From contig JANQWV010000028.1 of the NCBI GenBank assembly GCA_030729695.1, positions 20,541 through 84,540 on the forward strand: DNA of 64,000 nucleotides, written 5' to 3'. Below the pieces are notes generated by a model. That model had not been told where the DNA came from, ran no database searches, and saw only the letters and a list, made by a program, of their open reading frames with translations. Shown piece by piece: positions 5,391 to 62,778 of the stretch (position 1 is its first letter; each line of letters begins with the position of its first letter). The DNA is from Flavobacteriales bacterium (GTDB lineage: Bacteria > Bacteroidota > Bacteroidia > Flavobacteriales_D > Sanyastnellaceae). A program made the position numbers and the translations under genes.

Positions 5391-8300
5391 TTATTCCACC
5401 ACTACACGCTTCACCGTGAATGAATTTTCTGTTCGGAAAATGAACTCGTAAAGTCCAGGTGCGAAATCAGAAACATCAACAGAATAGCGCATGCTGTTAA
5501 ATTGGAAGTTCGAAATATTCTTTCCAGAAACATCTTTCACTTGCACAGAAACATTTCCAGCATGTGCACTCAATTCAATATTCAAATTAGATGAGGTTGG
5601 ATTCGGATAAAGTGTTAATCCAATTTCATTCAACGTGTAGGTATAAACTGAAGTCTCGTCTATGTAACCGTCGCAGTCGTTGTCTATGCCATCTACAGTT
5701 TCAATTGCAGAAGGGCTTATAGCAGGATTCGAATCGTTGCAATCGTCGTTATTTGTAGCGGTTCCTGTTGGCACTGTGCATGAATAAAGAACTACTCCTG
5801 CGCCATAACCGTCACCGTCTATGTCCATGTAATACGCTTGACCCAATCCTTCGTCAATAGCACCGTTGCAGTTGTCGTCGATGTCGTTACAAAACTCGGT
5901 TGCGTTTGGATTCATGGCACTGTTGTTATCGTCGCAGTCGCCCGCACATGCAGAGTAACCATCGCCGTCTGCATCGAAACCTTCGTCTACGATTCCATCG
6001 CAGTTGTCGTCGAGGTTGTTGCACAATTCCATTGCACCTGGATACGACAATGCATTACCGTCGTTACAATCATCTACACAAGAGAAGTAACCATCACCAT
6101 CTAAATCGGCATTGGTTGTAATGAAGGAACTGTTGTCGTTGCAATCGTTTCCGTTCGTAACGTACCCTGAAGGAATTTCACATCCTGTTGCTAATGTTTG
6201 TGCATCACCAAATCCATCGCCATCGGCATCTGCATAATATTCAATTTGATTGGAAACCGTAACGGCCCCAGTCCAAGTAATACTGTCGTTTGCTGCTCCA
6301 TTAGACACCATAAGAGTCACGTTGTAAACCCCAGGGGTTGTGTACATAACGTATGGATTCTGAAGTGTAGATGAACTAGGGACACCACCTGGGAATAACC
6401 AACTCCATGAGGTTGGATTGTTGTTGGTGTTGTCTACGAAATGAACAGGATAGTTCACACAAGAAACTTCGTTAAACGTTGCACTTGCTCCAATGTACTG
6501 AACAGGCATACAAGGACCTATTTGAGTAAGTACGTTGTGAATGTATACATTCAAAGCTTCATCGAATGCTGCAATACAAACTTCGTCACCGGTGAATGCT
6601 TCAACATAAACACGCAGAATAGGAGTTGGTGTGAAGTGAACAGGAATCATACTTCCCAAGTGTCCAAGTGCACCAATTTTTACTCCACCAACTTCTTTGT
6701 AAATAACCGAAGACCATGTGTTCACCGGCACGAGAGAAGTAACGTTGGTAATAGTAGCACCTCCAATATCGAATTGAAGCGCATTTATTTCGCCATTTGG
6801 ATTGGTCAGTGTAATGTCGAAGTACCCAAGTTCAGCATTCACGTTGGTTACACCAAGAATTGCGGTTTCAGATCCGTCTACAATTTCTGGATCCCAAGCG
6901 CAAGGTTGCATTAAACCTGGAGCAATACCTTCATCTATCTGCGCATGAATGCAAGCCTCAAGATATGCGGCATCTGCAATGCTTATGTCGCCGTCGCTAT
7001 TCAAATCGTTACAAATAGAAGCGCTTAAATCAGAATAAACAGCACTGTTTCCGTAAAGATCTACATCGACTTGCGTGTAACTTAAATCAGTGTTCAGATC
7101 TCCTTTTTTCTGTTCAGCTGGACAGTTGCCAAGACAATCTGGTTGCGCGTTTCCAAACAATTGTCCAACACAGTCTACAATTTGCGGACAAGATCCGATT
7201 GGAAGTTTAACGAAGTTGATGATGTTATTCATTGCATCACGTTCGAATGAAATACATACTTGCGCCCAGTTGTTATCGTAACGCAATTCGTAGTTGCCTA
7301 ACGCATCTGGATCTTGGTCCCAGTTGGTGCGAACAACTAAGTGATAAGTCCCCGCGGGCACGTTGGTAATGTCTATCCACTGACAGCTTAGACCTGAGCT
7401 ATAGATATCGTAGCATCCGGCTGTAATACCCATGTTTCCACATCCGTATTTAGCCACTCCTGATACACAACCAATGTCTAAAACACAAAATCCATTTTTG
7501 AATCCGATTTCGGGCATGAGATTGCCGTTCGAGTCGTACAATAAATATTCTGCGTAACCTGAATAGTGGTAGTGATTGTGGCAAGGATCGAAAACGAATT
7601 GTGGATTAGCAACATTCGGAACTCCAATGAAATAGTCAAGGTTACCAATGTTGTCAATACGTGTAGAGAAACGTACAACTTGTCTCGTGCCCAGACCTTG
7701 CAAACATCCTTCATTAACTAAGCATCCGTCTGTAGCTGTTAGTGTAGTTTGGTAGAGTGAAGAGTACAATAAGTTTCCTTCAACCAATAAGTCTGGACCA
7801 ATGTTGGAACAATTCGGATCGCCATTGTAGTAACATAAAGCAGGTTCTTCGGCCAAAGGGCTGTAGTTACAAGCGTTCAAATCCATACATCCAACAATAG
7901 GCCCCATGTATTCGAATAAGACTTGAAAAGCATCTAGTCCGCAGGCTCCGCCGTCGTCACCAACACGAATGTAGTATGTCATTCCTCCTTCGAGATAAGG
8001 TGTAATCTCCGCTTCTATTCCACACAAATCATCATTGAATGTGTAAGTTGCCTCATTTGTGTTGTCGAATAAAGCCATGTTGCAATAGTCGTACAACCAA
8101 ATCTTTGTATCGCATCCAGCTAATCCACACGTTGAAATTTGATACTGTCCGTTCACCGAAGGGGTGAAGGAATACCAAGAATTCGGCGAAGGCACAGCGT
8201 TCAATCCGAGATTCGCGACAATGGAATTGTCGCAGCTTGTTCCTTGCGGACAGTTCACTTGTATGGTTGCAAGTGAGCCAAATGCTGCACCGGTCGCAAC

Positions 8301-9815
8301 TGAATTTCCATCTAAATAAATGTTGTAGTTACCAGCACCGTTCGCGCAGCACAATCCATTTCCACCTGTATCGTAAATCTCTACGCGGTGACAGTTGTTG
8401 CTAATGCAGAAGTTTGCATCGTTCGTTGTTCCTTGTTGAATAACAAGATTTTCTTGATTGAAAACCTTCCAAGAAGTTTGTTGAGGAAGGTTATCTGTTG
8501 TAAGGTCGAGAGTTAAATTGTGTCCAGATGTAACAATAACATTCAAAGTAACACTGTTGCTATTGCCTTGCGGATCGTAGGTTGTAAGCGTTACAGGAAA
8601 CATACCAACAGCAGCGAAAGTTGTGGTTGGATCTTCCAATGTTGATGTTGAAGGAACACAATCACTAGGGAAAGTCCATTCAAATGAGGTGGCATTTCCT
8701 GTTGAAGTATTGTTGAATTGAAAATTCATGCAATTCGTTCCTGAAGGATAATAATTGAAATCGGAAGCCAAGGCAGGGAATTCGCAAGTGCCGTCATCAA
8801 TGGTTGCACAAGAGTTGTAGTTTGTTGCGTTAGCGTTGGTACATCCAGAAACAGTTGTCGTTGTTATGTTGAAATTGAATTCACCCATGGTGCTGTTGTA
8901 TCCGCCAACTTGCACATAGTAGGTCTGTCCAATAACGAGATAGTCATCTTCATTGGCGCCGGCTGTTCCATTTCCAGTAGGACAACCGAATTTCACCATT
9001 GAATAATTACCTGCAGCATCATCGTCGTCACAAGCGATAATTGAACCGTTGCACGCGTTGTAAACAGCAAGTTGCGTATCGGTTACACCTGTTCCTGTTC
9101 CAGTGGTTGCGCTGGTTTGAATGGTTACATTTCCACCTTGATAAACGAATGAGTACCAGATATCGCGGATGGTTCCGCCACATCCTGGAGTCGGACCAAC
9201 AGCCACGTTAATGTTATTCGTAATTATGGCTCCACTGTTTGGAACGAAGACTGCTGCTGTTGCGCATGTTTCGTTGGGCATGAAAATATTACATAGGCCA
9301 TTATCGACTGTGGCGCATGCGTTGTAATTTCCTGCTGAAGGATCTGTGCATCCGAGTATATCCGCTTTAGTTAGTTGAATGCTGAAGTTACCTTGAAGGT
9401 TGTTATATCCGCCAACCTGAACGTAATAGGTTGTTCCAACTGTTAAGGCTGGACACGACATAACCAATTGAGAGGCGTAGCCCATTCCCGCAGCATCGTC
9501 GTTACACAAAAGTTGAGCGCCGTTGCAACTGTTGTACAAGGCCATACGCGTGTCGGAAAGCGTTCCTAACGTTGTGGTTAAGGTAAATGTTCCTCCGGTG
9601 AAAATGAATTTATACCAGATGTCTTTGATTCCAAGACCAGCGCCCACTCCGCATGATGGGCTTGTGCCTTCTACTACGGTATTTAAATTACTTGTCGCAA
9701 CGGCAGGTGCATTTGGAATAAGTTCAATAGCATTCGCGCAAATGTCGTTCGCAGGTGCTTGTGCGAATACTTGGAAAGATGCGAAAAGCGCGAACGCAAG
9801 TAAAATCTTTTTCAT
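5391..9815 (-). CDS. Large modular putative T9SS cargo: PPC-like repeats, PKD, lysyl oxidase domain, dockerin-like, PKD, MopE-like metal-binding repeats, T9SS type A sorting domain
   Basis: 1474-aa ORF with signal peptide. LOX motifs FDPCHNHYHYSGYAEYLLYD, IGFKNGFCVLD, GCYDIYSSGLSCQWIDITNVPAGTYHLVV. Dockerin-like DLNSDGDISIADAAYLEACI. Repeats DCNDGNALSYPGAMELCNNLDDNCDGIVDEG. C-term LTLYPNPTSSNLNIEL...FTVKRVVVE. Confidence 0.9.
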   Translation of the reverse strand: MKKILLAFALFASFQVFAQAPANDICANAIELIPNAPAVATSNLNTVVEGTSPSCGVGAGLGIKDIWYKFIFTGGTFTLTTTLGTLSDTRMALYNSCNGAQLLCNDDAAGMGYASQLVMSCPALTVGTTYYVQVGGYNNLQGNFSIQLTKADILGCTDPSAGNYNACATVDNGLCNIFMPNETCATAAVFVPNSGAIITNNINVAVGPTPGCGGTIRDIWYSFVYQGGNVTIQTSATTGTGTGVTDTQLAVYNACNGSIIACDDDDAAGNYSMVKFGCPTGNGTAGANEDDYLVIGQTYYVQVGGYNSTMGEFNFNITTTTVSGCTNANATNYNSCATIDDGTCEFPALASDFNYYPSGTNCMNFQFNNTSTGNATSFEWTFPSDCVPSTSTLEDPTTTFAAVGMFPVTLTTYDPQGNSNSVTLNVIVTSGHNLTLDLTTDNLPQQTSWKVFNQENLVIQQGTTNDANFCISNNCHRVEIYDTGGNGLCCANGAGNYNIYLDGNSVATGAAFGSLATIQVNCPQGTSCDNSIVANLGLNAVPSPNSWYSFTPSVNGQYQISTCGLAGCDTKIWLYDYCNMALFDNTNEATYTFNDDLCGIEAEITPYLEGGMTYYIRVGDDGGACGLDAFQVLFEYMGPIVGCMDLNACNYSPLAEEPALCYYNGDPNCSNIGPDLLVEGNLLYSSLYQTTLTATDGCLVNEGCLQGLGTRQVVRFSTRIDNIGNLDYFIGVPNVANPQFVFDPCHNHYHYSGYAEYLLYDSNGNLMPEIGFKNGFCVLDIGCVSGVAKYGCGNMGITAGCYDIYSSGLSCQWIDITNVPAGTYHLVVRTNWDQDPDALGNYELRYDNNWAQVCISFERDAMNNIINFVKLPIGSCPQIVDCVGQLFGNAQPDCLGNCPAEQKKGDLNTDLSYTQVDVDLYGNSAVYSDLSASICNDLNSDGDISIADAAYLEACIHAQIDEGIAPGLMQPCAWDPEIVDGSETAILGVTNVNAELGYFDITLTNPNGEINALQFDIGGATITNVTSLVPVNTWSSVIYKEVGGVKIGALGHLGSMIPVHFTPTPILRVYVEAFTGDEVCIAAFDEALNVYIHNVLTQIGPCMPVQYIGASATFNEVSCVNYPVHFVDNTNNNPTSWSWLFPGGVPSSSTLQNPYVMYTTPGVYNVTLMVSNGAANDSITWTGAVTVSNQIEYYADADGDGFGDAQTLATGCEIPSGYVTNGNDCNDNSSFITTNADLDGDGYFSCVDDCNDGNALSYPGAMELCNNLDDNCDGIVDEGFDADGDGYSACAGDCDDNNSAMNPNATEFCNDIDDNCNGAIDEGLGQAYYMDIDGDGYGAGVVLYSCTVPTGTATNNDDCNDSNPAISPSAIETVDGIDNDCDGYIDETSVYTYTLNEIGLTLYPNPTSSNLNIELSAHAGNVSVQVKDVSGKNISNFQFNSMRYSVDVSDFAPGLYEFIFRTENSFTVKRVVVE
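5650..6245 (-). repeat. MopE-like putative metal-binding repeats (DCND/DCDDNN...ExCNxxDDNCxGxxDEG)
   Basis: YYADADGDGFGD..DCNDNSS / DLDGDGYFSCVDDCNDGNALSYPGAMELCNNLDDNCDGIVDEG / DADGDGYSACAGDCDDNNSAMNPNATEFCNDIDDNCNGAIDEG / YYMDIDGDGYGA..DDCNDSNPAISPSAIETVDGIDNDCDGYIDE. Confidence 0.8.
7200..7810 (-). other. Lysyl oxidase (PF01186-like) domain within the 1474-aa protein
   Basis: CHNHYH copper ligands at 7566-7583; Lys codon 7497-7499 in GFKNGFC; Tyr codon 7401-7403 in CYDIYSSGLSCQWID. Confidence 0.85.
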
Positions 9816-13901: not shown

Positions 13902-15974
13902 TTACTTATTGTTGAAAGCTTGCAAGCCTTCTTCCAACCATGCACGGAATTCAGAGGTTTCAACAATTCCGCTCTTAATCGGATTCATTAATTCTTCTCT
14001 TCCTTCCGTCATTGGATCAATAATGGCGTACATCGGTTGAGAGTTGTTGTTGAACGTCTCAATTTCAAAGGCAGACCACAAGTCACCGTAGGTCTCAATT
14101 TCCTTTTCAATTCCAGCCCATTTAGTAACAACGGTTTCTTTTAATTCCGCTGGAAGTTCTTGCTTGTCATCAACGTAAAGACTTACTACAATAAATTCAT
14201 TTTGCAATAAATCTAAAACTTGCGGCCAAACGTGCTCTTCCATTTTTCTACAGTTTACACATGCATAACCTGTGAAATCGACGAACAATGGTTTTCCTTC
14301 TTTTCTTGCGCGTTCCAATGCAACGTTGTAGTCGTGTTCGCAAAGTAATCCGTGCGGACAGTCACTTGGGTAAGCGTATGAATAACCGGTAGGAGGCGCA
14401 AGTCCACTCATTAAGGAAAGCGCATTGTATGAGGTTCCCTTTTCGTTCAGCATTAATCCACTCGCGAGATATACTACCCACATTCCCACGAACGTGGTGA
14501 ACACAATTCTGAATTTCGAAAACTTCTGAATCGGACTGTCGTGTGAAAATTTAATTGCTCCAATCAAGTAGAGGTACATTCCAAAGAATATCACTACCCA
14601 CAAGCCCATGAATACCTCGTACTTTAACAAGTTCCAGTGTACCACTAAATCTGCTTGAGATAAGAATTTCAGTGCGAGCGCTACTTCTAAAAATCCTAAA
14701 ACAACTTTTACAGAGTTCAACCAGCCACCTGATTTAGGCAAGCTCTTCATCATTCCTGGGAACATCGCAAACAACGCAAACGGAATTCCGAGTGCCAATC
14801 CGAATCCACCCATTCCAACAGTCAATTGAATGGCTCCGCCGTCTTTAGCAAGCGAACCTGCGAGCAGAGATCCTAAAATAGGGCCGGTACAAGAGAATGA
14901 AACAATAGCCAATGTAAGCGCCATGAAGAAAGCTCCTAACATTCCGCCTGCTTCAGCATTTTTATCCATCTTGTTCGCCAATCCTGCAGGAAGTGTTATT
15001 TCAAACAATCCGAAGAATGAAAGAGCGAATACAATGAAAATCACGAAGAACACAATGTTCAGAGGGACATTGGTAGAAATGTCGTTCAGAATGTTCTCGT
15101 TAATCTGATCCAAGAAATGGAACGGCATTGAAAGTAAAATGTAAATCAAGAAGATGAATCCGCCGTAAATCAACGCTTGGAAAATGCCTTTCTTACGGTC
15201 TTTGTTTCCTTTGGTGAAGAACGCAACAGTTAACGGTATCATTGGGAATACACATGGAGTAAGCAATGCAACCAATCCGCCCAAGAATCCCAGGAAGAAC
15301 AATTGCCACATGTTTCCATCTTGCGTGGTGCTCGCAGAAACACTTCCACTTTCTAAACGCGTCGTTAACTTCTCTTTGTCGTTACGAATGGTTTGAATCC
15401 AGTATCTGAATTTTGTTGTGGTTGGTTCCAATTGCATTTGATCTTCAACAAGTGCCGAAGTATCTACAGGTGCTGTCGATACGGCAGAACCATCTGCTGC
15501 ATTTGGAGTGATTTGTAGTTTGAATTTCGACTCAATCGGATAGCATGCTTTGTCGTTACACGTCTGACCCTGAATGGTTCCTTTTAAAGTGAAAGGAGCC
15601 GTTCCGATAATTTTAATTTTTTGTTTGAAAACAGCAGAATTTTCAAAATAGTTTACCTCACCGCCTTGCATCTCATCGTAATGGGTGATGTACTTTCCTT
15701 CCGTTAATTTTCCAATGAGTTCGAAATTTGCTTTATCTACATTTAAGATCAATTCAGTTGGAAGGGCATATACATTAGGATCTGCAGACGGACTCGTCGA
15801 GTACAAATGGAATCCCGGTGAAATAGTCGCTTGAAATTCAATTTCAGCTTCGTTGTTGGGTAAACTAACAAGGCTTGTTTTCCATTTTACTGGATCAACA
15901 ATTTGTGCTTGAGCATTCCAAGACAAAAATAAAATAGCAAGTACCGCAAAAATCTTTACTGATAAATTCTTCAT
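13902..15974 (-). CDS. dsbD: Thiol:disulfide interchange protein DsbD
   Basis: N-terminal periplasmic domain (GQTCNDKACYPIE), TM domain LLTPCVFPMIPLTVAFFTKG and SCTGPILGSLLAG, C-terminal thioredoxin DFTGYACVNCRKMEEHVW. Confidence 0.9.
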   Translation of the reverse strand: MKNLSVKIFAVLAILFLSWNAQAQIVDPVKWKTSLVSLPNNEAEIEFQATISPGFHLYSTSPSADPNVYALPTELILNVDKANFELIGKLTEGKYITHYDEMQGGEVNYFENSAVFKQKIKIIGTAPFTLKGTIQGQTCNDKACYPIESKFKLQITPNAADGSAVSTAPVDTSALVEDQMQLEPTTTKFRYWIQTIRNDKEKLTTRLESGSVSASTTQDGNMWQLFFLGFLGGLVALLTPCVFPMIPLTVAFFTKGNKDRKKGIFQALIYGGFIFLIYILLSMPFHFLDQINENILNDISTNVPLNIVFFVIFIVFALSFFGLFEITLPAGLANKMDKNAEAGGMLGAFFMALTLAIVSFSCTGPILGSLLAGSLAKDGGAIQLTVGMGGFGLALGIPFALFAMFPGMMKSLPKSGGWLNSVKVVLGFLEVALALKFLSQADLVVHWNLLKYEVFMGLWVVIFFGMYLYLIGAIKFSHDSPIQKFSKFRIVFTTFVGMWVVYLASGLMLNEKGTSYNALSLMSGLAPPTGYSYAYPSDCPHGLLCEHDYNVALERARKEGKPLFVDFTGYACVNCRKMEEHVWPQVLDLLQNEFIVVSLYVDDKQELPAELKETVVTKWAGIEKEIETYGDLWSAFEIETFNNNSQPMYAIIDPMTEGREELMNPIKSGIVETSEFRAWLEEGLQAFNNK

Positions 15975-25008: not shown

Positions 25009-25062
25009 TTTTTATTGCCAAGCAACGCATTGTCTTCGGAAGTAGTCTTATCTTCGAAGACC

Positions 25063-28000
25063 ATGTTTCCCCAACGAAGAGCACTTTTATTTTTTCTGAT
25101 TTTTCTGGCAGGATTGCCAGCGATTGTCTCTTCACAGATTTCTTTCATTCAGAACAAAGGCCAATGGCCTTCGCAAGTCAGATACAAAGCAGAAATTCCT
25201 GGAGGTTCGTTTTGGATTCAGTCTGAAGGGTTCGCTTATCAGCTCTTCGATTCAACTATTTTTAATCCGGATCATAAGCCCAATGTCCTGCCAGATTCTA
25301 CGGTTACGTTATTCTTCCTTCAACAATTGGAAAATGCAAGTTTGAATTTGGCCGAAGAACAAGACGATTTGCCAGGGTATTTCAATTATTATTTGGGGTC
25401 TGATTCAACGAAGTGGAGTTCACATGTGAAGCGTTTTCAAAACATCAATTTTCAGAATGTTTACGAAGGAATTAACCTGCGCTTATTGGGCAAATCGAAA
25501 TCCGTTAAATATCAATTTGAACTTCAACCACACGTCAATCCCAATCAGATCTCTTGGCATTACCACGATTCCTTGCGCTTGGAATTGGATACTTCTGGAA
25601 ACCTCATAACGCATCACGGGCATGGAAGAATTTATGAATCGAGACCCTTCGCTTTTCAATCGATAAACGGACATTTAATTGAAGTTAAATGTGATTATGT
25701 GTTGAATGGAAATCGACTTCAATTTGTGTTGGGAGAATACGATTCAAACTTCACGCTCATCATTGATCCTGAAATTTCATTCTCAACATTCATAGGTTCT
25801 TCAGCTAATAATTTCGGATTTACCGCATGTGATGATTTGAGCGGAAACTTGGTTTCAGGAGCGAGCGTATTCGCCAACAATTACCCAACAACCGCCAACG
25901 CTTATTCCACAACTTTTAATCCGACTGCGGGCAACTACTTTGATGTGGCAATTTCGAAATTCGATGCAACAGGATCAGCCCTTTTATACAGCACTTACCT
26001 GGGTGGACTTCATCAAGAAACTCCACACTCCGTTGTGGTAGATAACCTTGATCGCATTATCGTTTTTGGTGTAACCGGAAGTAGCGACTTCCCTACAACT
26101 TTGGGAACTTTCCAACCCTTATTCAGCGGTGGAGCTCCATTAATGATGACTACGTTTTTTACAAGTGGACATCCAGATGGATGTGATTTTTTCATTTCGA
26201 AATTCAATGCGAGCGGAACTTTAGCGGGGTCAACTTTTTTAGGTGACGCGTCGAACGATGGATTGAACTATGCCAATGAATTGTTTTACAATTACGGTGA
26301 TGCATTTCGAGGTGTGGTGAATGTCGACGCGAACAACAATATTTTCATTGGTTCTTGTGTACGGGGTAATGCTGATTTAGCCGGAGGGTCCATTCAAACG
26401 AATTACGGAGGAGGAGATAGCGACGGTTACATTGCGAAGTTTAATCCGAGCTTAAGCATGTTGTTGTGGTCTACATACATTGGTGGATCTGCGGCCGATG
26501 CCATCTATTCGTTAGAGTTCGCGAACGACGGTTCCATTCTCGTTGCCGGAGGAACCAAGAGTCAAAATTTCCCTTTCTGTTCAGGCGGAGAAGATTCCAA
26601 TTGGAACGGGGCAACAGACGGATTCATTCTAAAAATTGACCCTGTAAATTTCAATGTAACATCGGGAACGTTCGTCGGAACTGGAGAGTACGATCAGGTG
26701 TATTTCCTTCAAACAGATTTGAATGATAACATTTATTGTTTGGGACAAACAACAGGGAGCATGAGCATCACTCCTGGGCTATACGGACAACCCAACAGTG
26801 GGCAGTTCATTCGTAAGTACAACCCAACATTGAGCACGTTGAATTGGAGCACAACCATTGGAACAGGCAGCGGTGAGATTGATATTTCCCCTACTGCTTT
26901 TTTAGTAAGCGATTGCAACCAGATTTATTTCAGCGGTTGGGGTGGACATACCAATTCATTAACGTGTCCCGCATTGACATGCCTTGCGTACAACAGCACA
27001 ACAAATAACTTACCCATTACCGCAGATGCCTTTCAATCTACCACTGATGGCAGCGATTTCTATTTAGCTGTTTTGAATGCAGATGCTACGCAACTGGTTT
27101 ACGGTTCTTACCTCGGAGGAAGTTCTAGTGCGGAACACGTGGATGGTGGGACTTCGCGTTTCGATAAAAGCGGCTCTGTGTATCAAGCGGTCTGCGCGGG
27201 CTGTCAGAACAACGACGATTTTCCAACGACACCGGGAGCGTGGTCTTCCACCAACAACAGCTTCGGCTGTAACCTGGCAGTTTTCCGTTTCAATTTAGGG
27301 CAACTTGAAGCAATAGCCAATGTGCAAGGGCCTTCACAAATTTGTGTTGGAACCCCTGCGCAATTCACCAATGAAACCCAGAATGCTTCTGATTTTATTT
27401 GGAATTTCGGAGACGGACAAACCAGCACAGCCTTTCAGCCAAGTCACGTTTTCAATGCTGTTGGAAACGTAACGGTTTCTATGATTGCTTCCGACATTAA
27501 CGACTGCTATCTATCCGATACCGCAACTGTTAATCTTCAAATCATTGAATTTGTTCCGCCAACTATTGCTCCTGCAAACCCATTGTGTGTAGGAGAGTCC
27601 GTGACCTTGAATGCAAATGGTTCTGCAAATTTATTCTGGTTGAATAACGCCACGCTTTCCAACGTGAATGGAAATACAGCTGTGGCGACGCCTTTAAATT
27701 CGACAACCTATTACGTTTCTGATTTCAATGCGTGTGGAAGCGATACGGTTGGGGTTTATGTTAATGTGATTATTCCAATTGCTGAAGCAGGCCCAGATCA
27801 CACCATTTGCATTGGCGATTCACAACCGCTTACTGCATCGGGCGGTGCAAGTTATGTATGGCAGGTAAGTCCTTCATTAAGTTCATTGAATACCGCTGCC
27901 ACAGTAGCAACTCCAACAGAAGATGAGCAATTCTTCGTAATGGTTACAACTCCCGAAGGATGTATCGCCACCGATAGCTGTTATGTTTTTGTTGAACAAA

Positions 28001-28950
28001 CTGTTCCTGGAGGTGTGACTTATCCAACCATAGATTTGTGTTTGGGAGAAAGTGTTGTTTTGCAATCGGAAGAGGGACTCACCTATTCCTGGTCTCCTTC
28101 CGCTGGATTGAATTCAACCACAATTCAGAATCCGACTGCTTCACCAAGTAATTCAATTACCTATAACGTTGCTATTACCAATTCTTGCGGAGCAGGGAAT
28201 TCCGAAGTGTCAATCAATGTCATTGAATTGAATGTAGTAGCATCCGAAGGTGGAACTGTTTGTTTGGGCGATTTTTATCCTATTGAAGCAAATGGAGCTG
28301 ACTTTTATTCGTGGCTGCCATATAGCAGTGTTGTTGATGCATCTTCTAGTTCAACGTTAGCGAATGCACCGTTTTCGCAATGGATCACTGTAGTTGGAAC
28401 AGACGTGAACGGATGTGCAGATACCGATTCATTGTACATGAATATTCTTCAATTGCCAGAAGTTGATGCCGGTCCGGATCAGTACTTCGATTATCCAGGA
28501 AGCACAACCTTATTCGGAAATACATTCGGATTGAATTTTAACTGGTCTCCTTCTACAGGCTTGTCTTGCACAGACTGTGCTTATCCTGATGCAATGCCAT
28601 CAGAGCCCACCTGGTATTATCTGTCAACAATGAACAATACGGGTTGTGTGGGAATAGATTCGGTTTATGTTCGGCCGTATTTCCCAGTTTATGTCCCCAA
28701 TACCGTAACGCCGAACGGTGATGGCTTGAATGATGTTTTCTTAGTTGTTGGAGAAAATTTAACTGGATTTCATCTTCAAATTTTCGATCGTTGGGGAATC
28801 ATGATTTTTGAAACGAAGAATCCGAATGAGCCGTGGTTAGCGGGATACAAGGGGTATTTTGTTCCGAATGATGTCTATACTTGGAAACTAACGTTCGACT
28901 CGTTGGAAAGCAGACAGCAATTAATTGGACACGTAACTGTGATTCGTTAG
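25063..28950 (+). CDS. Large secreted protein: DUF7948-like N-terminus, SBBP-like repeats, PKD domain, T9SS type B (CHU_C, gliding-motility-associated) C-terminal domain
   Basis: Signal peptide after ATG 25063; ISFIQNKGQWPSQVRYKAEIPGG; FIGGSAADAIYSLEFANDGSILVAGGT repeats; DFIWNFGDGQTSTAFQPSHVF (PKD); C-term VYVPNTVTPNGDGLNDVFLVVGENLTGFHLQIFDRWGIMIFETKNPNEPWLAGYKGYFVPNDVYTWKLTF. Confidence 0.88.
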   Translation: MFPQRRALLFFLIFLAGLPAIVSSQISFIQNKGQWPSQVRYKAEIPGGSFWIQSEGFAYQLFDSTIFNPDHKPNVLPDSTVTLFFLQQLENASLNLAEEQDDLPGYFNYYLGSDSTKWSSHVKRFQNINFQNVYEGINLRLLGKSKSVKYQFELQPHVNPNQISWHYHDSLRLELDTSGNLITHHGHGRIYESRPFAFQSINGHLIEVKCDYVLNGNRLQFVLGEYDSNFTLIIDPEISFSTFIGSSANNFGFTACDDLSGNLVSGASVFANNYPTTANAYSTTFNPTAGNYFDVAISKFDATGSALLYSTYLGGLHQETPHSVVVDNLDRIIVFGVTGSSDFPTTLGTFQPLFSGGAPLMMTTFFTSGHPDGCDFFISKFNASGTLAGSTFLGDASNDGLNYANELFYNYGDAFRGVVNVDANNNIFIGSCVRGNADLAGGSIQTNYGGGDSDGYIAKFNPSLSMLLWSTYIGGSAADAIYSLEFANDGSILVAGGTKSQNFPFCSGGEDSNWNGATDGFILKIDPVNFNVTSGTFVGTGEYDQVYFLQTDLNDNIYCLGQTTGSMSITPGLYGQPNSGQFIRKYNPTLSTLNWSTTIGTGSGEIDISPTAFLVSDCNQIYFSGWGGHTNSLTCPALTCLAYNSTTNNLPITADAFQSTTDGSDFYLAVLNADATQLVYGSYLGGSSSAEHVDGGTSRFDKSGSVYQAVCAGCQNNDDFPTTPGAWSSTNNSFGCNLAVFRFNLGQLEAIANVQGPSQICVGTPAQFTNETQNASDFIWNFGDGQTSTAFQPSHVFNAVGNVTVSMIASDINDCYLSDTATVNLQIIEFVPPTIAPANPLCVGESVTLNANGSANLFWLNNATLSNVNGNTAVATPLNSTTYYVSDFNACGSDTVGVYVNVIIPIAEAGPDHTICIGDSQPLTASGGASYVWQVSPSLSSLNTAATVATPTEDEQFFVMVTTPEGCIATDSCYVFVEQTVPGGVTYPTIDLCLGESVVLQSEEGLTYSWSPSAGLNSTTIQNPTASPSNSITYNVAITNSCGAGNSEVSINVIELNVVASEGGTVCLGDFYPIEANGADFYSWLPYSSVVDASSSSTLANAPFSQWITVVGTDVNGCADTDSLYMNILQLPEVDAGPDQYFDYPGSTTLFGNTFGLNFNWSPSTGLSCTDCAYPDAMPSEPTWYYLSTMNNTGCVGIDSVYVRPYFPVYVPNTVTPNGDGLNDVFLVVGENLTGFHLQIFDRWGIMIFETKNPNEPWLAGYKGYFVPNDVYTWKLTFDSLESRQQLIGHVTVIR

Positions 28951-54689: not shown

Positions 54690-55954
54690 TATTCTACAGG
54701 ATCAGAAACTTTTGCATTCGCACCAACGCTGAAGCGAAGGCTAAAACGCAAAGTGTTCGCAAGTGGATTTTGTTGAGTAGTACTGACCAAATAACTCATG
54801 TCAATGGTCAATACTTGGTAGTGCAAGCCTGCACCGAACGTAATGAACTGACGATTTCCTTTTGTATAATGTTCATGGAAATAACCAAGGCGAATGGCGA
54901 ATTGCTGCGCGAAGTCGTATTCAAATCCAGTAGCAATATTGTACTCGCGAAGCTCTTCACCGAACTTACTTCCAGCAACAATAGATTGAGTCTCTGGATC
55001 GTAAATACCCGGAGCGTCATAGAAAGATTGAATCATTCCCGTAGCAGTTCCAACCTCCGGATTGTATCCAGAAATAATCGTGTCACCACCGTTGTTATAG
55101 ATAGGAGGAGATGGAACTAGAAGCTTATTCAAATCAAATAAGAAGGTTAACTTATTGTAGTCGTCAAGGTTTGAAGATATTGCAGTTCCCAAACGCAAGT
55201 TGGTTGGAATGAAATCACGATTGTCTGAGTTCGTGTAACTCATCTTCGCGCCAATGTTTGAGATATTTAAACCCCAATTCATTTTTGCCTTACGACCCGC
55301 TATTTTAATCTTGTCATTTGTGTAGAAGGTGGAAATGTCAACCGCAACGGATTGTCCAGGGCGACTTTCAGCACCTTGCAAGTTTGTTCTGCCGGTTAGA
55401 TTTGAGTTGATATAGCGAAGCGCAATACCTCCTGAGAATTTTTTAGAAAGCTTTTGAGAGTAGGCAAGATCAAGTGCGAATTCAGCAGGACGGAAGTCCA
55501 TAATGTTCGTTCCTACTTCATCGGTAAAGGTAATATTTCCTAAAGTGAAATAGCGAAGAGAGCCGCCCAATGCTTGGGTTTTGCTCAACTTTTTAATCGC
55601 ACTCAAATAGGTTAAACTCATGTCGTTTACCAATGCACGAAGCCACGGCGAGTAAGAAACAGAAACGTCTAAATCATTTTCAGAGAAAGCCATTTTTGAT
55701 GGATTCCAGTGAATACTGCTAGCGTCTGGATCAAGCGCCACACCTGCGTCTCCAAGCGCACCGCTGCGAGAGTCAGGAGCAATGGTTAAAAATGGTACGG
55801 CTGTAGTAATGGTGTTAATGGTAGCTTGACGACCATTCAACTCATTCGGATTTGTAAGTTGTGCGAAGGAAGCAGAGGTTGTCAAAACCAAGGCAGCAAC
55901 TAGAACATTTATTTTGAAAATACTTTTCATGCGTGGTGCAAATTTAACATACAT
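54689..55954 (-). CDS. porV: Type IX secretion system outer-membrane protein PorV (LptO)
   Basis: PFLTIAPDSRSGALGDAGVALDPDASSIHWNPSKMAFSENDLDVSVSYSPWLRALVNDMSLTYLSAIKKL; next to porU. Confidence 0.92.
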   Translation of the reverse strand: MYVKFAPRMKSIFKINVLVAALVLTTSASFAQLTNPNELNGRQATINTITTAVPFLTIAPDSRSGALGDAGVALDPDASSIHWNPSKMAFSENDLDVSVSYSPWLRALVNDMSLTYLSAIKKLSKTQALGGSLRYFTLGNITFTDEVGTNIMDFRPAEFALDLAYSQKLSKKFSGGIALRYINSNLTGRTNLQGAESRPGQSVAVDISTFYTNDKIKIAGRKAKMNWGLNISNIGAKMSYTNSDNRDFIPTNLRLGTAISSNLDDYNKLTFLFDLNKLLVPSPPIYNNGGDTIISGYNPEVGTATGMIQSFYDAPGIYDPETQSIVAGSKFGEELREYNIATGFEYDFAQQFAIRLGYFHEHYTKGNRQFITFGAGLHYQVLTIDMSYLVSTTQQNPLANTLRFSLRFSVGANAKVSDPVE

Positions 55955-55969
55955 ATACCCTTCAACACA

Positions 55970-58900
55970 TTATTTTAAAATTACCAATTTTTGAAACGAC
56001 TCCGCTCGTTGTCCTTTTTCGTTGCGAAGCTCTAACTTGTAGATATAAGTTCCTCTTCCAATGGCGTTGCCAAAATCATCTTTCCCGTCCCAAGGAATGT
56101 CTTGTCCGCGGAAGCCGGTAGCGTAAAAGGAAGACTCTATCGTCTTCACCAATTTTCCACTTACAGTGAAAATTTGAACGCGCGCATCGAGCTGCTGGCA
56201 GGCTTGATTGTGCTCGTAGATGAAGCTGGTATTCGTGGTAAACGGATTCGGAAAATTCAGCAAGTGACTTAGCGCAACTTTGGAATCTTCTTCCACACGG
56301 AATTGAATGGTCTCTTCATTGCTGTTGTTGAACACATCCCAAGCCTTTACTGTTAACGTATGTTCACCAATAGAAAGTGTGCTTAAGGGATAACGAACTT
56401 CGCCACTTGTATAAGTGTCTAAATCAGATTCATAGAAATCATTCAAAACAATGGGTTTGGCAGAGTTGCCGTCAATAATAGCAGTGAGGTTGTGTCCAAC
56501 TCCATTTCCAACCGTATTGATTCCATTTTCATCCTTAAGTTTAGCCAGAATAATCGGTGTTGTATTCGTGGAACCTCCGCTTACAAATGTTGAATCGTTC
56601 AGGAACAATGATATCTCTGGTCCAACGGTGTTTAATTGGGCATTCGGATTCAAACTTCCAATTTTAAACGCTTCACAAAAACCATGTCCATCATTATTTC
56701 CCGAGACAGTATAATAGCTCACACGTGCGCTGTCAACGGAATAGTTAATATCGAAAGGAACAATGAACTTGAACGAAAACTCACCATTCGTCACACTCGC
56801 TTTTCCTCGGTAAATAATTTTATTGTAAGAAGAGAATTCTTGAAACTGCCCTTCTTCGCCGTTCTGATCGTTGTTCTGTGTAATCACCTTCGATTCTTTA
56901 TCGAATACAGTTGGATATATAAACCCATTGAAATTGTTAAGAAAATTTCCATTGCTGTCTGTCAACTTTCCTCTGAACTCCGCTTCATCAAGAGCTTTTA
57001 AGGTGTCTGTGAAATTAGCCAATTCAATGCTGTTGATGTGTGTTGTCTGCACGCTTAATTTGGGGTAAGCCATTGCCAATGCGGGGTCACCAAGTAGACT
57101 GAAATTCGGTTTGCTGTCGTTTCCAATAGACACCCCGTTTTTCGTGAGCATATTCAGTTCACCAAGAGTTTTTAAGTTTCCGTTTTCACTGTACAAAGCA
57201 TGCTCGAAAAATGCCAAATCCATCTCGTAGTTTTCGCCACTAAACACAATGCGTGTTGTCGTGAGCATGGCAATAGCTCCGCCATTCGCGTTCATGACTA
57301 ATCGTTCGCCGGCCGATTTAAACTCAGGGTCATCGTAACGCGCTAATTCGCATGTCGCGGTCAAGAAAACAGGTAAACGGTATTTGTTGGTGAAGCTTTC
57401 GATTGTTGGGATATCCAAAATACGTTCATGTGCCCATCCTTTTTCACCTCCGTGACCAATGTATGTCATGAGCAATGACCCACTTTGAATGCGCTGTTGT
57501 ATCGCTTTTTCACCGTCTACATAGCGCTCTCCTCCAGGGGTGGAAATTTGAGTAAAAGCATCCATGTAAAGCTTTGAAATATCATATTCAGGATGGTTTG
57601 TGGAAACAATATTAGCCAGGCTGTTTGCAGAGTTCAAGTGAACTTGTTCATACGCCCCGCCACTGCCGTCTTGGTCATCTGCTACGAACGTTATAACATT
57701 TCTCCAATTGCCAAAAGGAGAATCCTGGACATCCCCAATACATGAAGCCCCTCCGTTGCTCGAAGTGTTTTCAGCTAAGTACGCTTTAATTTTTCCCAAG
57801 TAACCGTATGCCTCATTCAAAGAACTCGCTGGAATTCTTCCAACGCCGCAATCTAAAAGTCCAATTGCGTTTCCATCTTCTAGGGGAGAGACCATGACGA
57901 AATAGTCATCGCTTACATAGCTGCTTGTCGGAGAAAGTGAGTTGTTCGATTCGAAAACAAGAACGTTCGTTCCTTCGTGATTCGCAATGCCCTTGTTTCT
58001 CGAATAATCTCCGTCTCCTAAAATAAGCAAATTCTTTGGGCCTCGTGGACCACCATTGGCTCGGTCGTATTGCATTTTAACTAATTGACGGAAAGCCATG
58101 ACATCTGGATTTCCACTCGAAAATTCATTGAAGATTTGAAGCGGTGTTGCTATTTGAACCGTTTGTCCTTGGGCTTTGTGAATAGCTGCAATTTCTTCAG
58201 CCACTGGCATTAGAACTGGTGAACTTATGATAATTAACTCGGCACTTGGCCACCCATGTATGTCCTGATTTTCAACTTTACCAATGGCTACAGGAGTGAA
58301 AAAACTTGAAGCAAAAGCAACAAATTCTTTCAAGTCATCGGTGTTTGTAGTCCATGTGCTTAGGGTACCACTGCCAGATAAAGTCATACGCTTAGGAGCA
58401 GTGAAATTTGTAATGTCCCAAATTTCATTTACAGGGAAGGCTTGCTCTGAAATCTGAAACTCCGTAATATTCCCAACTCCAACCGAGAGAGTGTCTCGAA
58501 AACGCATTTGTGTTCCTTGCATTTTCAATTGCTGTGTTGCATTCACACAGATATAGTCGAGCCATCCCTTCGCATCGGCATTTCCTTTATTGAAATTTAC
58601 TGTGACGTTGAAATTTCCATTTGCGGGGATAAAGGATGTGTTGATTCTCCCTGTTCTCGCAACCTGAGAAGTTGGTGAGTCGGTTACATTTCCGATGGAA
58701 ACGGTATTCACGTTTCCTTGAACTGTCGCCGTGAAAACGGAACTCCCTCCAATTGTCCGCGCTATCGCGCTGAAGTCCATGCTTGCAGGAGCAGTGGTTT
58801 TCACATTGGGAAAACTAAAGTTGTAGGTCCCGGAAAGAACAGCGTCATACAAGTCACCGTAAAATTCTCTTCCCGATTTTGCTGGACTGTATTGGTCGGT

Positions 58901-59851
58901 TTCAACATACAAAAAATCTTGGAATGAATCCGAGATGCGGTTCGCGGTTGAACCACTGTTTTCCGTTGAAATTCGAAGAGGTGCAGTGTCGTTGATTTTT
59001 ATATAGTAGTATGCTGAGTCGCTATAGTAATGCTTAGTATGAAACCAACGCTTTCTTCCAATACCGTTGTCTTGCGCAAGTGTCCACGTGTCAGAACCTT
59101 TTCCATAAAAAAGAATGTAATCATTCGCGTTGAAAACACCATCCGATTCACCTTGAATGTGAATGGCGTTTTTAACTAAATCATCAGCCTTATATACAAA
59201 ATTCTTCTCAGGAAGAAGTGCGCCACCATTGCCATAAATGTTTATGGTATTCGGATCCAATCCGGATACCGAAATGCCGAGAGATTGCAAAAAACTGCGG
59301 TCTATTTTGTATACGCCATCTTTTGCAATGGCAATCTTATAAATATCTCCATCTGCTAAAACACTGTGAGTGGCATAGGTGTAATTATTCTTTTTTGTTT
59401 CGTTGAAGGATGTTGCGCCCTCCACTTCAAATGAAAGTAGGCGTTCGATTTTTCCATTTCGCTTGCGGAAGGGAAATACGGTAACCACTTGTTGGTTTTT
59501 TTTATCCGTTTGAACTGACTCAACTTCCACACGGAAGTCTTCTTCCATATTTTGAAGTTGGTGATTATCGAAATAGCTCGAGCTGATTTCAGAGATTGTT
59601 AGTTGCGTTAGAATGGGCTGAATGAACTGCTCATTAGAAGAAGTGTTAGCTCGAAAGGCAAGCACAGGTAGCGGCGAATGGGTAGATAAAATGAGAGATG
59701 GACACAGTTCTTCGACAACTGAAAAAGAGGTCCTGTTTTGTTTAAGATCCAGCCAGTTAATTTTTTGTTCAGGTACAAGTATTACTTGCGCCGAAATATT
59801 TACAGTGCAAATAACTGATAAACAGGTGAGTAGTAACTTAATCGTTCGCAT
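55970..59851 (-). CDS. porU: Type IX secretion system sortase PorU (C25 gingipain-like)
   Basis: IYKIAIAKDGVYKIDRSFLQSLGISVSGLDPNTINIYGNGG; GPKNLLILGDGDYSRNK; LLMTYIGHGGEKGWAHERIL and LPVFLTATCELARYDDPEF catalytic His/Cys regions; C-term LLNFPNPFTTNTSF...WDGKDDFGNAIGRGTYIYKLELRNEKG. Confidence 0.93.
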   Translation of the reverse strand: MRTIKLLLTCLSVICTVNISAQVILVPEQKINWLDLKQNRTSFSVVEELCPSLILSTHSPLPVLAFRANTSSNEQFIQPILTQLTISEISSSYFDNHQLQNMEEDFRVEVESVQTDKKNQQVVTVFPFRKRNGKIERLLSFEVEGATSFNETKKNNYTYATHSVLADGDIYKIAIAKDGVYKIDRSFLQSLGISVSGLDPNTINIYGNGGALLPEKNFVYKADDLVKNAIHIQGESDGVFNANDYILFYGKGSDTWTLAQDNGIGRKRWFHTKHYYSDSAYYYIKINDTAPLRISTENSGSTANRISDSFQDFLYVETDQYSPAKSGREFYGDLYDAVLSGTYNFSFPNVKTTAPASMDFSAIARTIGGSSVFTATVQGNVNTVSIGNVTDSPTSQVARTGRINTSFIPANGNFNVTVNFNKGNADAKGWLDYICVNATQQLKMQGTQMRFRDTLSVGVGNITEFQISEQAFPVNEIWDITNFTAPKRMTLSGSGTLSTWTTNTDDLKEFVAFASSFFTPVAIGKVENQDIHGWPSAELIIISSPVLMPVAEEIAAIHKAQGQTVQIATPLQIFNEFSSGNPDVMAFRQLVKMQYDRANGGPRGPKNLLILGDGDYSRNKGIANHEGTNVLVFESNNSLSPTSSYVSDDYFVMVSPLEDGNAIGLLDCGVGRIPASSLNEAYGYLGKIKAYLAENTSSNGGASCIGDVQDSPFGNWRNVITFVADDQDGSGGAYEQVHLNSANSLANIVSTNHPEYDISKLYMDAFTQISTPGGERYVDGEKAIQQRIQSGSLLMTYIGHGGEKGWAHERILDIPTIESFTNKYRLPVFLTATCELARYDDPEFKSAGERLVMNANGGAIAMLTTTRIVFSGENYEMDLAFFEHALYSENGNLKTLGELNMLTKNGVSIGNDSKPNFSLLGDPALAMAYPKLSVQTTHINSIELANFTDTLKALDEAEFRGKLTDSNGNFLNNFNGFIYPTVFDKESKVITQNNDQNGEEGQFQEFSSYNKIIYRGKASVTNGEFSFKFIVPFDINYSVDSARVSYYTVSGNNDGHGFCEAFKIGSLNPNAQLNTVGPEISLFLNDSTFVSGGSTNTTPIILAKLKDENGINTVGNGVGHNLTAIIDGNSAKPIVLNDFYESDLDTYTSGEVRYPLSTLSIGEHTLTVKAWDVFNNSNEETIQFRVEEDSKVALSHLLNFPNPFTTNTSFIYEHNQACQQLDARVQIFTVSGKLVKTIESSFYATGFRGQDIPWDGKDDFGNAIGRGTYIYKLELRNEKGQRAESFQKLVILK

Positions 59852-60000
59852 TTAATCTTCTAAGGTTTTGCTTTGAGGCCTGCCAATAACCAAAGATATT
59901 CCGATTTATTGTTTGGGCCCCATGTTATTTGAAAGCAAAAATGTTGTATAATTGCTATTCGAATCGAATATTTTTTACAAACTTTCGAATGAAGATTGCG

Positions 60001-60975
60001 ATGAAATTAAAATTCTTAGGGTTCATGATCTGTGTAATTGGTGTAACAAATGTTATGGCCCAAGATCCCGAGTTCACACAGTTTTACTCCAACCCACTTT
60101 ACTTGAATCCCGCATTTGCAGGGACTTCTAAGTGTCCACGTTTTGTAATGAACTACAGAAACCAATGGCCGTCATTAACCGGTGCATACGTAACAACGTG
60201 TGCCAGTTATGACCAGCACGTTGAAACAGTTTCGGGTGGTTTAGGCATAATGGTCATGAATGACCGCGCCGCGCAGAATACTCTAAATACGACTGTTGTA
60301 AGTGGGATTTATTCCTATCAGCAAGCGATTAATCGTAAGTTCAGTATTAAGGCAGGTTTCCAAGCATCATACTTCCAAAAATCTTTGGATTGGAGTAAAC
60401 TTACTTTCGGAGATATGATTGATCCGAGAAAAGGATTTATCTACGAAACGAATGACATACCAAGAGGAGGAAATATCAAGAATATCGATTTTTCTGCAGG
60501 TGTGTTAGGCTTCAGCCAGACATTTTACGGTGGATTCGCTGTTCATCACTTGAACGAGCCAAACGAAAGTTTAATTGTAGGAACTTCTCGTCTTCCAATG
60601 AAGTACACTGTTCACGCAGGAGCTGTTATTCCAATTAAGCAGAAATACAAGGACTCAAGCACACTTTCTCCAAATATCCTTTATCGCCGTCAAGGTGAAT
60701 TCCAACAATTGAATCTTGGTATGTATGTAACCAAAGGTCCAATCGTTGCAGGAGTTTGGTTCCGTGGAATGTTGTTCGGACAACGATACAGCGATAGTTT
60801 CATTGCTACCTTAGGTTTGCAAAATGACAACATTCGTGTAGGTTACAGTTATGACATTACTGTAAGTGCATTGACTCCGGCTACCGGCGGATCGCATGAA
60901 GTTTCTTTGGGAATTAATTTCGATTGCCGTCCAAGAAAACCGAAGTTCCGCACAATAGCGTGTCCTTCTTTTTAG
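60001..60975 (+). CDS. PorP/SprF family type IX secretion system membrane protein
   Basis: AQDPEFTQFYSNPLYLNPAFAGTSKCPRFVMNYRNQWPSLTGAYVTTCASYDQHVETVSGGLGIMVMNDRAAQNTLNTT; NIRVGYSYDITVSALTPATGGSHEVSLGINF. ATG 60001 preferred (59989 possible). Confidence 0.9.
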   Translation: MKLKFLGFMICVIGVTNVMAQDPEFTQFYSNPLYLNPAFAGTSKCPRFVMNYRNQWPSLTGAYVTTCASYDQHVETVSGGLGIMVMNDRAAQNTLNTTVVSGIYSYQQAINRKFSIKAGFQASYFQKSLDWSKLTFGDMIDPRKGFIYETNDIPRGGNIKNIDFSAGVLGFSQTFYGGFAVHHLNEPNESLIVGTSRLPMKYTVHAGAVIPIKQKYKDSSTLSPNILYRRQGEFQQLNLGMYVTKGPIVAGVWFRGMLFGQRYSDSFIATLGLQNDNIRVGYSYDITVSALTPATGGSHEVSLGINFDCRPRKPKFRTIACPSF

Positions 60976-61017
60976 TTATACAAGAAACCCAACAGTTATT
61001 TCATAAAATAGGAAATC

Positions 61018-62778
61018 ATGAAAAACTTTAAATTAACCTTAACAACACTCGCCCTCTCAGGTATGGTTGTTCTCAACTCTTGCGAGGAGAATCGCTCCAC
61101 AGCAACGGGTTGGGAATACAATGATCCTGATAACGGAGGATTCGATAGAGTGGAATATTTAGGTCAAGAGACCGGTCCAGGTTTAGTATTCATTGAAGGC
61201 GGCCGCTTTTCAATGGGTCGCGTTGAAGATGACGTAAACTACACTTGGGATCATTTGCAGACTCCTGTAACCGTGAGTTCATTCTACATGGATGAAACAG
61301 AGGTAACTAATCAACATTGGTTAGATTACTTGCACTGGTTAGAGATGGTTTACGCAGATTCATACCCAGAATTAATTGGTCGCGCCCTTCCAGATACCAA
61401 CTGCTGGAGACAGAAGAACCAAGACATGGAGAAATACGTAGAGTTGTACTTGCGTCATCCAGCATACCAAGACTACCCTGTAGTAGGTGTTAGTTGGTTG
61501 CAAGCAAATGACTACTGTTCTTGGAGAACTGATCGCGTTAACGAGCAAATCCTTGTTCGTGAAGGTTTCTTAGCTCACAACTTAGCTGCTCAAGGTGCAG
61601 ATGAGCACTTTACAACAGAAACTTACTTCAATGGTCAATACGAAGGAGAGCAATTAGGAGAGGGACTCCCTAATTACAATCCTAAAGGAGATCCTTTCCG
61701 TAAAGTTAGAATGGAAGACGGAATTCTTTTGCCACGTTACCGCCTGCCTTCTGAGGCAGAATGGGAGTACGCTGCAATGGCGCTTATTGGAAACTCTTAC
61801 CAAGAATTAATCACAGATCGTAGAACCTATCCTTGGAACGGTCACTATGTTCGTAATGGAGACAACGGAACGGAGTATTTCGGTACAATGCGTGCAAACT
61901 TCATGCGTGGAACCGGAGATGCGATGGGTGTTGCAGGATACTTAAACGATAACGCAGATATCACTGCACCAGTTTACCAATACCCGCCAAACGATTTCGG
62001 TTTGTACAATATGGCTGGTAACGTTTCTGAATGGGTAGCTGACGTTTATCGTCCGCTTACTGATGAAGATCGTTCTGAATTCCGCCCATACAGAGGTAAC
62101 GTCTACAAAACAAAAACATTGAACAGCGATGGAACTGTTGCAGACAAGTTGACTTACAACGTGTACGATGTTGATGAAGTGAAAAGGTATTTGGAAAGTT
62201 TGAAAGACTCTTCTTTAATTACGCGTAGTAAGTACGGAGAGAAAGATATTCAAGTGTTAGATCAAAGCTTAGTGAAGATAGATCAAGCTATCGAGAAGCG
62301 TGACCAACGTCGTGAAGAAGAATCTATGGCTATCATGGATGAAATCATGGAATTGATTCGCAGTTCAGAAGCTGATATCGCCTACACAATGGTAGATAAC
62401 ATCGAGAACTTTATTGTAAGCACCTCAGGTCGTCAGAAGATGAGAAACGTTTCGTTGGAAGAAAACATCAACAGAACAAACTATCGCAAGGCAGATAACA
62501 TTGATTACAACGATGGTGATTTCCAAAGCAGTTCGAAATATTTGAACCCTGACTTTGAAAATCGTGCAGACCGTATGTACGATTATGGTAAAACTACTTT
62601 AATCAACAACAGATCACGTGTGTACAAAGGCGGTAGCTGGGAAGATCGTGTATATTACAACATTCCAAGTACAAGAAGATTTATGGATGAAAGAAAGTCT
62701 AGTCGTTCTCTCGGATTCCGTTGCGCTATGGACCGCGTAGGTTCACCATCGGGTATTGGAGCGAAAGGAGGAGAATAA
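61018..62778 (+). CDS. gldJ: Gliding motility lipoprotein GldJ (SUMF1/FGE-like fold)
   Basis: Lipobox LNSC; GLVFIEGGRFSMGRVEDDVNYTWDHLQTPVTVSSFYMDETEVTNQHWLDYLHWLEMVYADSYPELIGRALPDTNCWR; RLPSEAEWEYAAMALIG; YNMAGNVSEWVADVYRP; flanked by porU/porV and murF. GldK paralogue considered less likely. Confidence 0.88.
   Translation: MKNFKLTLTTLALSGMVVLNSCEENRSTATGWEYNDPDNGGFDRVEYLGQETGPGLVFIEGGRFSMGRVEDDVNYTWDHLQTPVTVSSFYMDETEVTNQHWLDYLHWLEMVYADSYPELIGRALPDTNCWRQKNQDMEKYVELYLRHPAYQDYPVVGVSWLQANDYCSWRTDRVNEQILVREGFLAHNLAAQGADEHFTTETYFNGQYEGEQLGEGLPNYNPKGDPFRKVRMEDGILLPRYRLPSEAEWEYAAMALIGNSYQELITDRRTYPWNGHYVRNGDNGTEYFGTMRANFMRGTGDAMGVAGYLNDNADITAPVYQYPPNDFGLYNMAGNVSEWVADVYRPLTDEDRSEFRPYRGNVYKTKTLNSDGTVADKLTYNVYDVDEVKRYLESLKDSSLITRSKYGEKDIQVLDQSLVKIDQAIEKRDQRREEESMAIMDEIMELIRSSEADIAYTMVDNIENFIVSTSGRQKMRNVSLEENINRTNYRKADNIDYNDGDFQSSSKYLNPDFENRADRMYDYGKTTLINNRSRVYKGGSWEDRVYYNIPSTRRFMDERKSSRSLGFRCAMDRVGSPSGIGAKGGE

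Follow-up and report, generated by a model that had tools for sequence, protein, structure and literature searches.

Lysyl oxidase (LOX) is the copper enzyme by which animals cross-link collagen and harden both collagen and elastin. The question raised by the present locus is what a domain of this family does in the putative T9SS cargo of a Flavobacteriales bacterium of the family Sanyastnellaceae. The window, which is the whole stretch of 64,000 nucleotides that was analysed, contains three LOX motifs quoted in an earlier sequence-only reading, and all three share one open frame on the minus strand. The features assigned to this frame are as follows.

5391..9815 (-): open reading frame of the LOX-containing T9SS cargo protein, 1474 aa
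9759..9815 (-): signal-peptide-like N-terminal segment, aa 1-19, by inspection
9396..9752 (-): GBD_T9SS_assoc domain, the better of two matched stretches (PF23759, E 3.6e-10)
8547..8732 (-): PKD domain (PF00801, best stretch aa 362-423)
6501..8540 (-): conserved core, aa 426-1105, common to nearly all LOX proteins of the family (alignment occupancy)
8244..8531 (-): Cys-containing module with a DSYGDG-type motif, inside the conserved core
about 7194..7838 (-): lysyl oxidase catalytic domain, aligned and modelled extent
7233..7697 (-): PF01186 stretch, aa 707-861 (Pfam)
7566..7583 (-): copper motif CHNHYH with H746 (codon 7578-7580), H748 (7572-7574) and H750 (7566-7568), from LOXL2 alignment and codon mapping
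7497..7499 (-): LTQ lysine K773, from LOXL2 alignment and codon mapping
7401..7403 (-): LTQ tyrosine Y805, from LOXL2 alignment and codon mapping
6888..7148 (-): dockerin-like segment of Ca-binding type (Dockerin_1 in relatives, profile comparison)
6498..6884 (-): conserved domain directly after the dockerin-like segment (conservation)
6273..6506 (-): PKD_4 domain (PF18911)
5982..6071 (-): MopE-type metal-binding repeat, best of three (PF11617)
5397..5612 (-): T9SS type A C-terminal sorting domain (PF18962, TIGR04183)

The assignment to the LOX family was borne out by a Pfam search of the window ORF, in which PF01186 matched with an E-value of 2.8e-27 and 96.1 bits against a curated cut-off of 20.4. 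Among PDB sequences, human LOXL2 (5ze3) alone matched at E-values up to 1 (E 3.4e-22, 28% identity), and the His triad, lysine, and tyrosine of the window protein align with it column for column. The segments CHNHYH, GFKNGFC, and GCYDIY fall on the copper, lysine, and tyrosine motifs of LOXL2, respectively, most cysteines pair as well, and the codons of the copper-binding histidines and of the two LTQ residues lie exactly where the sequence-only reading had put them. That reading placed the domain at 7200-7810; the modelled domain is slightly wider. An AlphaFold2 model of the LOX domain, built from an alignment of 39 relatives, reached a pLDDT of 89 and a pTM of 0.84; Foldseek matched it in the PDB to LOXL2 chains (E 8.4e-15, with a TM (TMq) of 0.72, and E 3.0e-14) and to nothing else at E<0.001. 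Since the LOXL2 structure is that of a precursor, the model cannot display LTQ formation. The E-values and the conservation in related sequences rule out chance for this observation, and the window domain is confirmed, at the level of alignment and model, as a LOX-family domain with a complete set of active-site residues.

The conservation of these residues was followed with an HMM built from 39 relatives with no motif filter, which gave 98 domain hits over the ORFs of the fetched loci, some of them short, split, or redundant. Counting the relatives in which the column is covered, the three histidines and the lysine are kept in 89/89 and the tyrosine in 94/94, while the structural cysteines are conserved less strictly than the catalytic residues. 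The invariance of the five residues points to strong purifying selection on the active site. No other part of the protein is as well conserved as the LOX region, which has a block identity of 58-70% in its core, compared with about 10-40% across much of the flanking sequence. Occupancy is mostly 0.9-1.0 in the core of about 680 residues (aa 426-1105) and mostly 0.1-0.5 outside it; the PKD stretch just after the core is also mostly present, and the outer modules otherwise vary. The core comprises the DSYGDG-type module, a second Cys-containing stretch, the LOX domain, the dockerin-like segment, and a further conserved domain. Dockerin_1 was matched by 22 of 27 members, and the profile of the dockerin-like segment matches solved dockerins (1daq, E 9e-5); the window copy of the segment alone scores 19.1 bits, below the Pfam cut-off of 22.9. 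The domain that follows had no convincing Pfam or PDB match, and a cohesin-like reading of it was dropped because the profiles give no support. The LOX proteins found here range from roughly 680 to 2250 aa and are multidomain T9SS cargo. A type A sorting domain was recognised in 25 of the 38 full LOX proteins, and in the rest it may have been missed or cut off at contig ends. The MopE repeats were also considered as a copper chaperone, a role that was rejected because they occur in only 14 of the 38 members and are thus no fixed companion.

The LOX domain is near-core in the family of the window organism and not a curiosity. Of 50 good Sanyastnellaceae genomes, 45 contain PF01186, as do 84/238 genomes of the order and 3/342 genomes sampled across the phylum. 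A genome scan at the species level yielded 448 relatives, 80 of which were kept; these are mostly Flavobacteriales and Saprospiraceae MAGs and include two cultured Phaeodactylibacter strains. The relatives appear to be lake-dwelling, judging from the isolate names of the nearest named MAGs, which refer to lake sampling series. In a phylogeny of the kind proposed by the sequence-only reading, comprising 110 domains and no eukaryotic sequences, the window protein groups with its own genus and family. A second LOX-containing T9SS protein of 682 aa is encoded in the same genome (L032 7713-9761, contig C17) and sits in a separate, long-branched group of this tree.

A survey of the order revealed many genomes that match only the C-terminal half of PF01186. 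The corresponding ORFs, when read directly, carry HxHxH, a KxxFC/KxxYC lysine motif, and a DxY tyrosine motif, and hhalign related this diverged branch to the window group with a probability of 97.8% (E 9e-13). The branch resembles the window group in its catalytic residues, all five of which are kept in 16/16 aligned members, and differs from it in that PF01186 covers the C-terminal half only; several disulfide cysteines have been lost. A model built from seven diverged members matched 49/296 genomes of the class at E below 1e-50, a count read off the table, with residues checked only in ten fetched loci. The AlphaFold2 prediction for the branch was too weak to serve as confirmation of the fold (pLDDT 77.5; top match LOXL2, non-significant) and was set aside. 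The diverged branch suggests that surveys based on PF01186 undercount bacterial LOX. Diverged LOX-like T9SS proteins of Flavobacteriales were seen at L067 6141-7085 and in L053, L058, L060, L069, and L092-L101. Each of the five loci that were checked (L053, L058, L066, L067, and L069) has a propeller-type gene next to the diverged LOX; this gene is Reg_prop by Pfam in the two loci scanned.

With respect to export, the proposed T9SS type A C-terminal domain was recovered by two models, PF18962 (E 1.3e-12, aa 1402-1473) and TIGR04183 (30.7 bits, cut-off 23), both above cut-off, and by inspection the N-terminal segment MKKILLAFALFASFQVFAQ is a plausible signal peptide. A cluster of T9SS and gliding genes spans window positions 54692-62775.

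54692..55954 (-): PorV, T9SS outer membrane protein (NF033710, 466 bits, cut-off 250)
55973..59851 (-): PorU, T9SS sortase (NF033707, 1207 bits, cut-off 420)
59929..60972 (+): PorP/SprF family T9SS membrane protein (TIGR03519, above cut-off)
61018..62775 (+): GldJ-like gliding lipoprotein (TIGR03524, 437.6 bits, just under the cut-off of 458.2)

SprA was found elsewhere in the genome, outside the window. The presence of SprA, PorV, PorU, and PorP/SprF makes the T9SS a plausible export route for the LOX protein. The window also encodes, at 25015-28950, a second large Lys-poor cargo, whose sorting domain is of T9SS type B. A DsbD-type thiol-disulfide protein (13902-15974) is encoded a few genes upstream of the Cys-rich LOX in the same orientation, and this neighbourhood is kept in the genus.

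The LOX protein is probably a copper amine oxidase of the lysyl oxidase family that is either displayed on the cell surface or released, and it is very likely that it is an active Cu/LTQ enzyme. The course that we infer, from the binding of the metal and the making of the cofactor to activity, substrate, and role, is as follows. The protein would fold in the periplasm with several disulfides and be exported by the T9SS, and PorU would anchor or release it. At the surface, Cu2+ bound to H746, H748, and H750 would drive the self-formation of LTQ from K773 and Y805. Once mature, the enzyme may convert primary amines, most likely those of lysyl side chains in extracellular proteins or peptides, into aldehydes with the release of H2O2 and NH3, and the resulting aldehydes could cross-link proteins. 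Whether protein-bound lysine is the main substrate is evenly poised, and a role in cross-linking or maturing the cell's own surface or attachment matrix is somewhat less probable. More tentative is the wider proposal that, in part of the Bacteroidota, a T9SS-exported LOX with two sub-branches and a conserved module in one of them may be a standard lysine-oxidising surface enzyme that covalently cures a proteinaceous layer or attachment matrix. If true, such surface curing would be a bacterial counterpart of animal LOX-based matrix maturation.

The substrate was approached through the genome and the neighbouring genes. No collagen-like protein (PF01391) was found in the genome, the assembly of which is 88.56% complete, and collagen was rejected as a substrate. 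The lysine content is also low, with a median of 1.0% in LOX proteins and 0.6% in CotH-type T9SS neighbours. The window LOX protein itself has 65 cysteines versus only 18 lysines in 1474 aa, a bias that is also seen in the LOX proteins and CotH-type cargo of the family. The Lys-poor composition of LOX and CotH-type cargo speaks against dense self-cross-linking; cross-linking at specific sites or of foreign targets would still be compatible with it. This composition might be read as an avoidance of lysine by LOX against self-oxidation; this was rejected, because CotH-type cargo is even poorer and the trait is not specific. The sequence-only reading had interpreted the protein as a cell-surface or secreted amine oxidase, with surface proteins, matrix, or host polymers as the targets of its cross-linking. 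This reading was supported in part: LOX family membership, a complete active site, and secreted T9SS cargo stood, and the cross-linking of these targets is a putative function.

Synteny around LOX is conserved within the window genus, and across lineages no consistent substrate gene adjoins LOX in the fetched loci. A CotH kinase is near LOX in 47 loci, a number that includes duplicate fetches and mostly reflects the synteny of one family. The CotH kinase was rejected as a functional partner, as it is not beside LOX in the window genus and, with eight CotH matches in the genome, its proximity may be due to chance. In 13 loci, a gene for an S46 peptidase is found close to LOX. Both neighbours are conserved in parts of the family and not around the window copy.

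The S46 gene is one of the points that would suit a nutritional or offensive amine oxidase, which would deaminate free amines, polyamines, amino sugars, or peptides for ammonia and aldehydes, or direct H2O2 against neighbours, with no structural cross-linking. Many small primary amines, as well as aminoglycosides and polymyxin, are substrates of the archaeal HTU-LOX (PMC6452851), and the surface proteins examined here are lysine-poor, which fits as well. However, the S46 gene does not adjoin LOX in the window genus, and the long conserved module with its dockerin-like segment and PKD suggests attachment to a polymer or surface and not a simple scavenger. This explanation is possible but rather unlikely. 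Considerably less probable is that the LOX fold has been reused as an inert domain for adhesion or metal binding. The adhesin-like multidomain context with PKD, MopE repeats, and GBD would allow it, but pure binding does not need the retention of K and Y, and the catalytic set (His/His/His/Lys 89/89, Tyr 94/94) persists even in the branch that lost several disulfide cysteines. Least credible, and already disfavoured, is that LOX was acquired recently in a single transfer from an animal or another eukaryote and has no established role: the likeness to animal motifs is strong and the distribution across the phylum patchy, but LOX is near-core in the family, syntenic in the genus, and diversified within the Bacteroidota, and Bacteroidetes were already among the bacterial carriers in a 2015 survey (PMC4448552).

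The probable surface or released copper amine oxidase can finally be compared with known systems. The catalytic domain is known, and the architecture, the T9SS export route, and the near-core status appear to be undescribed; the earlier suggestion that the domain context is unstudied agrees with the open-access literature, where no study of LOX as T9SS cargo was found and only an unrelated review matched. With human LOXL2 (5ze3) and animal LOX, the window protein shares the Pfam family, the His triad, the LTQ lysine and tyrosine, most cysteines of the catalytic domain, and the predicted fold; unlike LOXL2, it lacks SRCR domains and has T9SS export and dockerin-like, PKD, and MopE modules. HTU-LOX of Haloterrigena turkmenica is the only characterised prokaryotic LOX enzyme found. 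Refolded with copper, it is an active copper amine oxidase sensitive to 3-aminopropionitrile, with a broad specificity for primary amines and a native role that its authors call cryptic (Pestov et al., 2019; PMC6452851). It shares with the window protein a prokaryotic LOX domain, the copper-binding histidines, and the LTQ residues, but it is archaeal, and neither T9SS export nor a place in a large multidomain protein has been described for it. With LOX in a conserved T9SS cargo in 45 of the family's 50 good genomes and cultured Phaeodactylibacter available, the native role of a prokaryotic LOX becomes testable by deletion and biochemistry. The 2015 survey reported bacterial LOX, including those of Bacteroidetes, with conserved catalytic motifs; only three of its prokaryotic sequences had anything other than a simple architecture (Grau-Bove et al., 2015; PMC4448552). 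In contrast to these, the LOX proteins described here are multidomain T9SS cargo and near-core in one family.
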